DNA from: Aquamicrobium sp.
GTDB taxonomy: Bacteria > Pseudomonadota > Alphaproteobacteria > Rhizobiales > Rhizobiaceae
DNA: 64,000 nt
NCBI GenBank assembly: GCA_019739225.1
Contig: JAHHDT010000005.1
Location: 1,302,001 to 1,366,000 of the forward strand
Direction of reading: 5' to 3'
In this document: positions 18,326 to 21,805 of the stretch, piece after piece
How the letters are laid out: every line of letters starts with the position of its first letter
Position numbering within the stretch: position 1 is the first letter of the stretch
Position numbers and translations under genes: made by a program
Notes under the pieces: model-generated
Told to the model about the DNA's origin: nothing
What the model saw: only the letters and a program-made list of their open reading frames with translations
Database searches by the model: none

Positions 18326-19282
18326 GTGAACGCCGAACAGTCCGCCATGCACCCCAGCCGCTCGTTCCAGGGGCTGATCCTGACCCTGCACCGATACTGG
18401 GCGGATTACGGCTGCGTCATCCTGCAGCCCTACGACATGGAAGTCGGTGCGGGGACGTTCCATCCGGCCACCACCTTGCGCGCGCTCGGACCCCGGCCGT
18501 GGAACGCGGCCTATGTGCAGCCCTCGCGCCGGCCGAAGGATGGCCGCTACGGCGAGAACCCGAACCGGCTGCAGCACTACTACCAATACCAGGTGATCCT
18601 GAAGCCCAACCCGTCGAACCTGCAGGAGCTTTACCTGGGCTCGCTCGCAGCGATCGGCATCGATCCGCTGCTGCACGACATCCGCTTCGTGGAAGACGAC
18701 TGGGAAAGCCCGACGCTGGGTGCCTGGGGGCTCGGCTGGGAATGCTGGTGCGACGGCATGGAGGTCTCGCAATTCACCTATTTCCAGCAGGTCTGCGGTA
18801 TCGAGTGCGCGCCAGTGGCCGGCGAGCTGACCTATGGCCTCGAACGGCTGGCCATGTATGTCCAGGGCGTCGACAACGTCTACGACCTGAACTTCAACGG
18901 CCGCGAGGGTGCGGAGAAGGTGACCTATGGCGATGTGTTCCTGCAGGCCGAGCAGGAGTATTCGCGGCATAATTTCGAACATGCCGACACGGCGATCCTG
19001 TTTCGTCACTTCGAGGACGCGGAACGCGAGTGCAAGGCGCTGCTGGCCGCGGGAGCGCCGAAGGAAGGCGACAACAACCCGATGCACAAGATGGTGCTGC
19101 CAGCTTACGACCAGTGCATCAAGGCTTCACACGCTTTCAACCTGCTCGACGCGCGTGGCGTGATCTCGGTCACCGAGCGGCAAAGTTACATCCTGCGGGT
19201 GCGTAATCTTGCCAAGGCATGTGGCGAGGCGTTCCTGGCGACGGATGCGGGCGGCTACGCCTTCGATACGAAAGCTGCCTGA
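18326..19282 (+). CDS. glyQ: glycyl-tRNA synthetase alpha subunit
   Basis: GlyQ holds the class II catalytic core of the tetrameric bacterial glycyl-tRNA synthetase. It has 318 residues and opens with the family block [18 protein letters not shown]; further blocks are [31 protein letters not shown] and FTYFQQ. The start is set at a GTG with AAGAGG upstream; an ATG at 18347 would remove seven residues. The stop is one base before the first copy of the glyS start. Confidence 0.96.
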
Positions 19283-19283
19283 C

Positions 19284-19406
19284 ATGCCTGATCTTTTTCT
19301 TGAACTCCGCTCCGAGGAAATCCCGGCCCGCCCGCGCGCCCACAGCGCCGCAGGCGCGAGGACGTGCAAACAGAAGGCATGCGGCATGGAGAGCACCGAT
19401 GCCTGA
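19284..19406 (+). pseudogene. leader ORF 1: truncated copy of the glyS start, 40 codons
   Basis: It begins one base after the glyQ stop and reads [16 protein letters not shown], the GlyS N-terminus, then runs into spacer-encoded PRAHSAAGARTCKQ and ends at a TGA that overlaps the next ATG (ATGCCTGA). It may be translated, coupling ribosomes from glyQ onward, or may be a dead duplicate. Confidence 0.4.
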
Positions 19407-19524
19407 TCTGCTTCTTGAACTCCGCTCCGAGGAAATCCCCGCCCGCCCGCGCGCCCGCAGCGCTGTAGGCGCGAGGACGCGCAGACAGGAAAAGGCATGC
19501 GGCATGGAGAACACCGATGCCTGA
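19399..19524 (+). pseudogene. leader ORF 2: truncated copy of the glyS start, 41 codons
   Basis: It is a second copy, [16 protein letters not shown] followed by [26 protein letters not shown] site lies five bases before its ATG. Its TGA at 19522 overlaps the true glyS ATG by the same eight-base ATGCCTGA arrangement. The peptide tail is clearly related to that of leader ORF 1. Confidence 0.4.
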
Positions 19525-21805
19525 TCTGCTTCTCGAACTTCGCTCCGAGGAAATCCCCGCCCGCATGCAGCGCAAGGCTGCCGGCGATCTGAGGAAGATG
19601 GTTACCGATGGTCTGGTCGAGGCCGGTCTGACATACGAGGCGGCGACGGAATACTGGACGCCGCGCCGGCTGACGCTCGACATTCGTGGCCTGACGGCGC
19701 GATCGAAGGATGTGCGCGAGGAGCGCAAGGGCCCGTCGACCAAGGCGCCCGAGCAGGCGATTCACGGGTTCCTGCGCTCCGCCGGGCTTTCCTCCGTCGA
19801 GGAGGCGCAGATCCAGTCCGACCCGAAGAAGGGCGATTTCTACGTCGCGGTGATCGAGCGGCCGGGCCGTCCGGCCGAGGAGATCATCGCGGACCTGATG
19901 CCCGGCATCGTCCGCGGCTTTCCGTGGCCGAAATCGATGCGCTGGGGTGCTGCCTCGGCGAAGCCCGGCTCGCTGCGCTGGGTGCGCCCGCTGCAATCGA
20001 TCCTCTGCACCTTCGGGCCGGAGACCGAGGAGCCGGTGGTGGTCGATTTCGAGGTCGACGGCATCCGCGCCGGCAACGTCACCTACGGCCATCGCTTCCA
20101 TGCGCCGGGTGAGATCACCGTGCGCCGCTTCGACGATTATGTCTCCAAGCTGGAGGCCGCGAAGGTCGTGCTCGACGCCGAGCGGCGCAAGAGCATCATC
20201 CTCGACGACGCGAAGAACCTCGCATTCGCCGCAGGGCTCGAACTGGTCGACGACGAGGGCCTGCTGGAAGAGGTCTCCGGCCTCGTCGAATGGCCGGTGG
20301 TGCTGATGGGCGAGTTCGAGCAGGCCTTTCTCGACATTCCGCCGGAGGTCATCCGGCTCACCATCCGCGCCAACCAGAAGTGTTTCGTCACGCGTCCGCA
20401 GGGCGATGGTAACAGGCTGTCCAACCGCTTCGTGCTCGTTTCCAACATCGAAGCGAAGGATGGCGGCGTGGAGATCGCCCACGGCAACGGCAAGGTCGTG
20501 CGGGCGCGCCTGTCGGACGCGGTCCATTTCTGGAAGACCGACCAGGTCGACCTGCCGGACCTGGCCACGCTGGAGGCTTCGGCCGCAAAATTCGGGCTCG
20601 ATCTCAGGAAGCCGCTCGACCAGCGCATGGCACGGCTCGACCATCTCGGCGTCACCTTCCATGCCAAGCTCGGCACGCAGGGGGAGCGCGTGGAGCGCAT
20701 TCGCAGGCTCGCGCGCAAACTGGCACCGCTGGTCGGTGCCGACCCCGATCTGGCCGACCGCGCGGCGGTACTTGCCAAGGCCGATCTCCAGACCGAAGTC
20801 GTCGGCGAGTTTGCCGAACTACAGGGCGCGATGGGCCGCAAATATGCGCTGTTGCAGGGCGAGGATGCTTCCGTCGCTGCAGCGCTTGAGGAACACTACC
20901 GCCCGCAGGGGCCGTCCGACGTCGTCCCGACCGATCCAGTCTCTGTGGCGGTGGCGCTGGCCGACAAGCTCGACACGTTGACCGGCTTCTGGGCCATCGA
21001 CGAAAAGCCGACCGGGAGCAAGGACCCGTATGCGCTCAGGCGAGCGGCGCTGGGCGTGATCCGGATTGTTGTTGAGAATGGGGTTCAGATCCCGCTCAGG
21101 GTATACTTAGATGATGCGGGTTCCAACGTGTTGGACGACACACTCGCATATCACTACGTAGGAAGCGAACTCATTGAAGCTGGATCATATAGGACCATTA
21201 AAGGGAAATATGATCTTGTTGAAATAGTGAGAGCTGGAGCTAAAAATCCCACAATCCACAGCGCGCTCTTTGACGAGCAAGTTGTGTTGGACCTCCTCTC
21301 CTTCTTCCACGATCGTCTGAAGGTCTATCTCCGCGACAAGGGCGCTCGGCACGATCTCATCGACGCGGTGATCTCCCCCGAAGCGGACGACCTTCTCCTA
21401 GTCACTAGCCGCGTCGCGGCGCTCGGCATCTTCCTCGATTCCGACGACGGCAAGAACCTGCTCGCCGGCACCAAGCGCGCGGCCAACATTCTGGCTGCCG
21501 AGGAGAAGAAGGGCACGACCGTGGCTGAGGCCGTCGATCCGGCGCTTCTGCGCGAGCCGGCCGAGAAAAAGCTGTTCGATGCGGTGAATCAGGCTGAGAA
21601 GAACGTCGGCGAAGCGATTCGGAAACAAGACTTTTCCGCTGCCATGCTCGCACTTAGCGTGCTGCGTGAACCAGTTGATTCATTCTTTGAAGCGGTTCTC
21701 GTGAACGATGAGGACGAGGCGGTGCGGGCCAACCGGCTGGCGCTGCTCGCCCGCATCCGCGAGGCGACCGGCCAGGTCGCCGATTTCTCGAAGATCGCGG
21801 GTTAG
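19517..21805 (+). CDS. glyS: glycyl-tRNA synthetase beta subunit
   Basis: GlyS binds tRNA(Gly) and completes the enzyme with GlyQ. It has 762 residues: [18 protein letters not shown] start, HD-like domain around the middle, and a C-terminal anticodon-binding part ending in [15 protein letters not shown]. The region around 515-590 (bases 21062-21290) is visibly richer in A/T than the rest and encodes an extra block between [10 protein letters not shown] and the conserved [22 protein letters not shown]; a second softer patch is at 21600-21710. The frame stays open, so the gene is probably functional. The start is copy 3 of the repeated leader. Confidence 0.95.

Follow-up and report, generated by a model that had tools for sequence, protein, structure and literature searches.

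Why would a bacterial chromosome carry the beginning of one gene three times in succession? The question is raised by glyS in a 64,000-nucleotide stretch of Aquamicrobium sp. DNA (GCA_019739225.1, contig JAHHDT010000005.1, positions 1,302,001 to 1,366,000; hereafter the window), where the start of the gene is repeated on the forward strand at positions 19284-19373, 19399-19488 and 19517-19606, with spacings of 115 and 118 nucleotides. We propose, with a probability of roughly 0.78, that this triplication consists of two head-to-tail units of an old and presumably once mobile family of hairpin elements that resides at gene ends in Hyphomicrobiales.

The triplication is confirmed not to be a product of chance. 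A repeat finder recovered the three starts at 19284, 19399 and 19517 and the spacers of 67 and 70 nucleotides that an initial annotation had read from the DNA letters alone. It reported 91% identity for the copy at 19399-19488 and 64% for that at 19517-19606 over the whole 90 nucleotides, the latter value being low because only the first 48 nucleotides are shared. Each repeat unit is composed of this 48-nucleotide glyS start and one of the two spacers, and the triplicated region occurs once in the 5.35 Mb genome. The origin is unlikely to be an assembly artefact, because three genomes of the same genus carry glyS units as well (one each in G003 and G002, two in G005, as read by eye).

The arrangement is compact, and all of its parts lie on the forward strand. 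The stop codon of glyQ (TGA, 19280-19282) is one base ahead of the first repeated ATG, with the identities of glyQ and glyS taken from NCBIfam models. Start copy 1 of glyS spans 19284-19331 and opens a leader reading frame of 40 codons (19284-19406) whose TGA, at 19404-19406, lies within the ATGCCTGA of copy 2. This second copy (19399-19446) opens a leader frame of 41 codons (19399-19524), ending at the TGA at 19522-19524 within the ATGCCTGA that belongs to glyS itself. The Shine-Dalgarno-like sequences GGAGAG (19388-19393) and GGAGAA (19506-19511) precede the second and third ATG, in agreement with the initial annotation. Intact glyS (TIGR00211) occupies 19517-21805, and its insertion site lies between 19564 and 19565 (GCCCGC^ATGC).

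The repeated spacer is a hairpin with covarying stems

The repeated spacer is a hairpin with covarying stems and the conserved internal loop CCCGCA/GAGGA. Among 50 aligned cores, 91.8% of the cells of the two-stem hairpin are paired and 34 cells, counted over related sequences, are changed on both sides. This pairing level was reached by 0 of 500 shuffles, and it falls to 16.6-49.9% when the partner is slid by one to three columns. Compensatory stem types are visible in the alignment (GCGCC/GGCGC, GCGGC/GCCGC and GCGGT/ACCGC). The whole element measures approximately 55-85 nucleotides and comprises the hairpin, an A-rich stretch and usually a 7-12 nucleotide inverted copy of the target.

A covariance model, R1, was built from these 50 cores, which include both cores of the window. 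Core 1 (19329-19378) matches the model with 62.8 bits (E 1.3e-13) and core 2 (19444-19493) with 71.2 bits (E 1e-15). According to the family covariation, the P1 stem of core 1 pairs 19334-19338 with 19363-19367; its P2 stem pairs 19345-19349 with 19353-19357, and GAGGA follows at 19358-19362. The two glyS spacers are the only R1 matches in the window (next best E 0.19), and the window genome likewise yielded two element copies, both at glyS, in a model search that scored 20 candidates there. Rfam returned no family for window positions 18900-19900, where the best hit was a MIR8670 microRNA model (E 0.011, 26.8 of 150 gathering bits), and on seven other loci with the same hairpin loop it gave only tRNA or sub-threshold matches. 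Thus no riboswitch, T-box or other known RNA family was matched in the window region or at those seven loci.

The element resides at the ends of many genes

R1 matches occur in at least 103 of 297 genomes of the same family (E<=0.001), in at least 37 of 347 genomes of the order Hyphomicrobiales (E<=1e-4), at least 28 of them outside the family, and in at least 3 of 385 genomes of the class, one of which is the window's own. All of these counts are lower bounds, with 15-20 candidates scored per genome. A one-unit query against the 297 family genomes gave 30 best loci, the window included, of which 27 carry the unit (L051, L054 and L055 do not) and whose carriers span many genera. One further glyS-unit locus is found in another family of the same order (G048).

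A search with the spacer alone in 25 chosen genomes found it at the starts of hisF and hisA and at the 3′ ends of ilvC and mmsA, with the gene end doubled. The 5′-end targets comprise the starts of glyS, hisF, hisA, cimA, rnhA and tRNA-Met genes and the 3′-end targets comprise ilvC, mmsA and sdhB, while the element also adjoins tRNA-Leu. Insertion sites are shared across genera, and some targets carry tandem elements, such as the four copies at ilvC of Jiella mangrovi (L207). Classified by target-site pattern, 95 last units fall to glyS (37), mmsA (17), hisF (15), ilvC (11), tRNA-fMet (3), hisA (2), cimA (1) and sdhB (1), with 8 unclassified; rnhA, a CoA-transferase gene and tRNA-Leu are targets beyond this list of patterns. 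Protein names were checked with NCBIfam on one representative each. HisF, HisA, IlvC, methylmalonate-semialdehyde dehydrogenase, SdhB and RNase HI scored above the cut-off, and the CoA-transferase and the citramalate synthase CimA, whose protein is clipped by the end of the locus, scored below the curated one.

ARAGORN identified tRNA-Met genes at 6 element loci. At L164, L165, L174-L176, L178 and L377, a tRNA-Met gene (CAT, of initiator type by eye) has a partial 5′ copy and the hairpin in front of it, and genome G100 holds three separate tRNA-Met copies with identical cores and repeats. A tight array at L355 (G345:C10:244670-244903) contains at least five cores at 46-nucleotide spacing and is devoid of the long gene-end unit, so that the same hairpin is arranged differently there.

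Gene ends are duplicated and the target recurs in inverted form

With 80 further regions fetched, R1 gave 117 matches in 81 loci, and a significant direct repeat accompanies 103 of them. Over all loci we count 122 distinct elements with a direct repeat, a number that takes in only elements of this kind. In 76 last or single units the repeat has a median length of 49 nucleotides (quartiles 44 and 63, range 26-97), with the longest examples at sdhB (86 and 97) and the upper lengths inflated by tandem arrays. In the Hyphomicrobiales elements that were read, viewing the element in its own orientation puts the spare gene end on its left and the gene body on its right, at 5′ as well as 3′ ends. The gene end is mostly present on both sides of the element, so that the adjoining gene stays whole, and at 5′-end targets the native upstream region stays with the outer copy.

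Some repeats stop sharply at the start codon although their two copies are identical, as for hisF in L195 (46/46), hisF in L182 (43/43, with ATG changed to GTG) and glyS in L179 (50/50, including two bases before the ATG). The repeat extends upstream of the start codon in L376 and L160, so the start codon is not always the border.

A short stretch between the core and the intact gene end is the reverse complement of the target across the insertion point. Examples are GCATGCGG at glyS, GCGGCCGTCC at hisF and CCGTGGATCGCC at ilvC. In the window, the inverted copy of unit 1 (19377-19384) is the reverse complement of CCGCATGC at 19561-19568, and that of unit 2 lies at 19495-19502. The inverted-copy score averages 8.30, compared to 4.49 in other parts of the same locus, and 54 of the 71 units with enough sequence (24 were set aside) outscore every control segment of their own locus; a looser first count had given 52 of 94. 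Furthermore, the inverted copy agrees more closely with the target in its own host than with the corresponding gene from other genomes for mmsA (8.53 versus 6.10; 0/5000), ilvC (9.82 versus 8.60; 0/5000) and hisF (8.87 versus 8.05; 26/5000).

Leader frames of glyS units end at the next start codon

The initial annotation had envisioned ribosomes passing through two small peptides on their way to glyS, and the layout of the family agrees with this part of its proposal. In all 48 distinct glyS units a stop codon falls within 12 nucleotides of the next ATG, compared to 13.7 units expected when the spacer bases are shuffled. These units are related and do not represent 48 independent events, and two frame solutions are kept among them. 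Relative to the next ATG, the leader stop is at -2 (TGATG) in 29 units, at +5 (ATGCCTGA) in 17, and at -3 and -4 in one each. Expressed as overlap spacing, this corresponds to -1 in the 29 units, -8 in the 17, one abutting pair and one pair that is one base apart. The two main layouts are therefore the -1 and -8 spacings, which a review describes as enriched in overlapping gene pairs (PMC12548453).

The open frame from the outer ATG is kept in all 48 units although unit length ranges from 112 to 134 nucleotides, and a Shine-Dalgarno-like motif precedes the next ATG in 42 of them. Since the arrangement is kept in every unit, far above the shuffled expectation, ribosome hand-over to glyS looks to be under selection. 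Judged from sequence, the most plausible role of the leader frames is to keep glyS expressed despite the insertion. A duplication peculiar to glyS is not the cause of the layout, since the same hairpin with a doubled gene end occurs at other genes.

If this reading is right, a tiny insertion can persist at housekeeping gene ends and leave the genes undamaged, through duplication of the gene end and, at glyS, through the overlap of stop and start codons. The 48 glyS units, with their two main overlap solutions, amount to natural experiments in translational coupling. The element also accounts for odd short open reading frames (ORFs) ahead of glyS and hisF across a range of Hyphomicrobiales genomes.

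Unit number and history of the insertions

Comparison of the glyQ-glyS junction across relatives, which the initial annotation had named as a check on its proposal, revealed 0, 1 or 2 units within the genus. In addition to the three congeners with units, four others (G004, G007, G001 and G006, read by eye) have glyS with an uninterrupted site, and these differing counts in seven genomes indicate that unit number varies between species. A stretch of Mesorhizobium sediminum KCTC 42205 has exactly the same sequence as the unit region of G003. In a second genus (g78), one genome carries a glyS unit whose copies show no difference across 50 nucleotides; no unit was present at the glyS loci read for G329, G174, G084 and G237, and the units of G328 lie on another contig. 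Element-free glyS sites are common overall. We also observed that an extra gene separates glyQ from glyS in G005 and G006 (L004 and L009); in G005 it matches Pfam Isochorismatase, and the two units of that genome are placed after it.

On a tree of 85 glyS proteins, with rows chosen by hand (37 with the element and 48 without), element presence requires 18 changes versus 27.8 with shuffled labels, and the well-supported branches force 4. The outer glyS copy shares 91.2% identity with the glyS of its own genome, compared to 80.4% with the glyS of others (n=36, 0/5000); it was thus either derived from the local gene or held similar to it by recombination. For each target, we read these data as old insertions that were mostly inherited, were often lost via the direct repeats, and had their copies homogenized or renewed.

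These observations are consistent with a sequence of events that begins with a mobile hairpin element, its mobility being inferred. Insertion would have created a long target duplication that left the gene whole, after which ribosomes starting on the outer copy would pass to the real gene by termination and reinitiation. The 48-base-pair direct repeats would let recombination gain, lose and homogenize units, which would give rise to the 0, 1 or 2 units found among close relatives.

Several results weigh against this account. A significant direct repeat is missing at 14 of the 117 R1 matches, which we put down to outer copies that have presumably decayed or been replaced. The inverted copy at glyS does not significantly track its own target (483/5000), a target that hardly varies, and coupling at hisF adds little because 15 of 15 units barely exceeds the 12.0 expected; hisA frames were left out of that count, as the start pattern matched none. 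In only 22 of 36 cases does the outer copy find its best or tied match in the glyS of its own genome. In 56 of 66 comparisons the nearest core belongs to the same target, and in none of the 66 does it come from a different target within the same genome. Core similarity declines with glyS divergence (Mantel r 0.368, 19/2000), so that recent jumping between genes is not seen. RNA folds of four sequences showed no gain in stability over shuffles (z -0.59 to +0.70). Finally, the search for a mobilizing enzyme, which covered only the Y1 transposase (PF01797) and the Rep_trans initiator, found no Y1 match in the window genome (G000) or in 14 of 18 Rhizobiaceae genomes tested, and no Rep_trans match in any of 64 genomes (30 Rhizobiaceae with elements, 30 from the glyS search, 2 Bordetella and 2 Halieaceae).

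Recent spread within a genome was rejected on the nearest-neighbor result just given, and a role through unusual RNA stability was rejected on the fold comparison.

Alternative explanations

The initial annotation had suggested that the repeated starts might set the ratio of the GlyQ and GlyS subunits or act as a variable-number switch, and one could extend this view to a leader that senses glycine or tRNA charging. The conserved coupling layout and the differing unit numbers among congeners would suit such a device, as would some predicted structures in which the Shine-Dalgarno motif lies within sequence able to pair with the glyS start. Nothing else points to a dedicated switch, however, and we regard one as improbable because the same element also adjoins tRNA genes and occupies the 3′ ends of ilvC, mmsA and sdhB, positions that offer no start codon for regulation. 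The abundance of element-free glyS sites and the lack of an Rfam riboswitch or T-box match argue in the same direction, as do leader peptides whose tail is rich in Arg and Ala, contains 10% Gly and lacks a run of three glycines in all 48 cases. Moreover, a gene intervenes between glyQ and glyS in G005, and by eye the sequence before the unit in several carriers is unlike the end of glyQ. Replication slippage that simply duplicated the glyS start, with no special element, would yield tandem units of high identity such as those observed, but it is contradicted by a spacer of 67-70 nucleotides that is not glyS sequence and that recurs at unrelated genes with covarying stems.

If the two spacers are instead taken as units of a hairpin family, they might represent a branch of the CGTC-tagged repetitive extragenic palindromes (REPs), moved by an unknown or lost transposase and duplicating gene ends as a side effect. 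One study describes CGTC REPs as small hairpins that are mainly alphaproteobacterial and have no dedicated transposase; their stem of 8-9 base pairs opens with AT pairs, and they carry a CCA tail (PMC3733652). An unpaired CGTC, TGTC or CCTC tag is expected at one end of such a REP. The opposite strand of the core does read CGTCCTCG at the foot of the hairpin, with the CG of this CGTC inside the outer stem of the model. Against a REP origin, the window copies have GC stems and no CCA tail, and the element is of low copy number, with two copies in the window genome that are both at glyS and form no dispersed family. It also resides at gene ends with the end duplicated. The string "duplicat" is absent from the main text of that study. 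We therefore consider a REP origin unlikely. It is also unlikely that the inverted target copy serves as the guide of a minimal RNA- or single-stranded DNA (ssDNA)-guided homing element that inserts repeatedly at the same site. This idea draws on an inverted copy that crosses the insertion point and, for three of four genes, agrees with the target found in its own host, and on conserved target genes hit at the same sites across genera. Yet the target next to the element remains whole, and a functional guide would therefore cut the genome that carries it; an imprint left by template switching accounts for the match equally well.

We continue to favor an old family of gene-end hairpin elements. 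As a tentative generalization, for which we would give less than even odds, it may represent a new class of selfish bacterial elements, ssDNA or RNA hairpins that insert near the ends of essential genes and tRNA genes, copy the end and thereby spare the host's gene, leave an inverted imprint of the target and supply ribosome hand-over at 5′ ends. The question that follows is what inserts a hairpin together with a duplication of tens of bases and an inverted copy of the target; if the process is still active, it would constitute an unusual insertion mechanism.

Comparison with known repeats and mobile hairpins

The closest relatives in effect are the mycobacterial interspersed repetitive units (MIRUs), which a review describes as mobile units that sit at start codons and contain an ORF coupled to the gene, a layout that permits insertion with little effect on expression (PMC12548453). 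The likeness lies in a unit ORF coupled to the downstream gene, judged by layout in the 48 glyS units. MIRUs differ in their mycobacterial hosts and -4 (NTGA) spacing, and their description sets them apart from an element that duplicates the gene's own end, carries an inverted target copy and also hits 3′ ends and tRNA genes. Variable unit number is likewise a property of MIRUs.

GTAG REPs mobilized by REP-associated tyrosine transposases (RAYTs), and the REPINs, are likewise miniature non-autonomous hairpins. Unlike these, the element has no GTAG tag at the hairpin foot. Y1 matches were found in 6 of 22 genomes searched, and with the window genome among those lacking them, a REP/RAYT system is unlikely; we rejected RAYT mobilization on the absence of Y1 from that genome and from both Bordetella genomes tested. 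A miniature inverted-repeat transposable element would be expected to have terminal inverted repeats and a short target duplication. Here the direct repeats have the long median noted above, and the inverted repeat found outside the hairpin has the target as its pairing partner.

Rickettsia palindromic elements are palindromes that, as here, live with coding sequence in alphaproteobacteria, but they lie within reading frames. With the gene-end element, duplication of the end leaves the encoded product unaltered. Short hairpin-forming repeats of sponge mitochondria are also described as invading genomes (PMC2800124), but these are organelle genomes, unlike the setting of the gene-end element. 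To our knowledge, no duplicated gene end accompanies the mitochondrial hairpins. No gene-end-duplicating hairpin was found described in open-access PMC titles or the starts of abstracts, a search that leaves the subscription literature uncovered, so the novelty of the family is provisional.

Hairpins with the same loop in other bacteria and phage-like contigs

A wider search required the exact CCCGCA/GAGGA loop, and the following loci are among the matches listed. In five IMG/VR loci (L317, L321, L324, L327 and L331), on phage-like contigs, and one of Undibacterium (L240), a hairpin with the same internal loop and a varying outer stem lies in the 5′ part of an ORF of 430-500 amino acids, with no gene-end duplication around it. 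All six replication-initiation ORFs tested match Pfam Rep_trans, and both neighboring integrase-like ORFs tested match Phage_integrase, which suggests that this hairpin may be, or be descended from, an origin of rolling-circle replication. Rep_trans was considered as the mobilizer of the gene-end element, and was rejected since its absence from the 64 genomes counts against a direct role. The shared loop may reflect convergence or a common ssDNA feature.

Long intergenic hairpins with the same loop are found in Bordetella genomosp. 13 and B. ansorpii (L216:7336-7518, L259, L287 and others). In addition to the shared loop they contain a second internal one, GGAGAA/CGCAG, and they are trailed by CAAGAAC; some form inverted pairs, and none shows gene-end duplication. 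In Halieaceae and a gammaproteobacterial metagenome-assembled genome (L203, L229 and L244), a tRNA-Lys or tRNA-Val gene has the hairpin downstream of it; for the Halieaceae tRNA cases the orientation is opposite to that of the Hyphomicrobiales elements. At L203 and L229 the tRNA 3′ end and terminator are duplicated behind the hairpin, and Litorirhabdus carries three such units of 189 base pairs.
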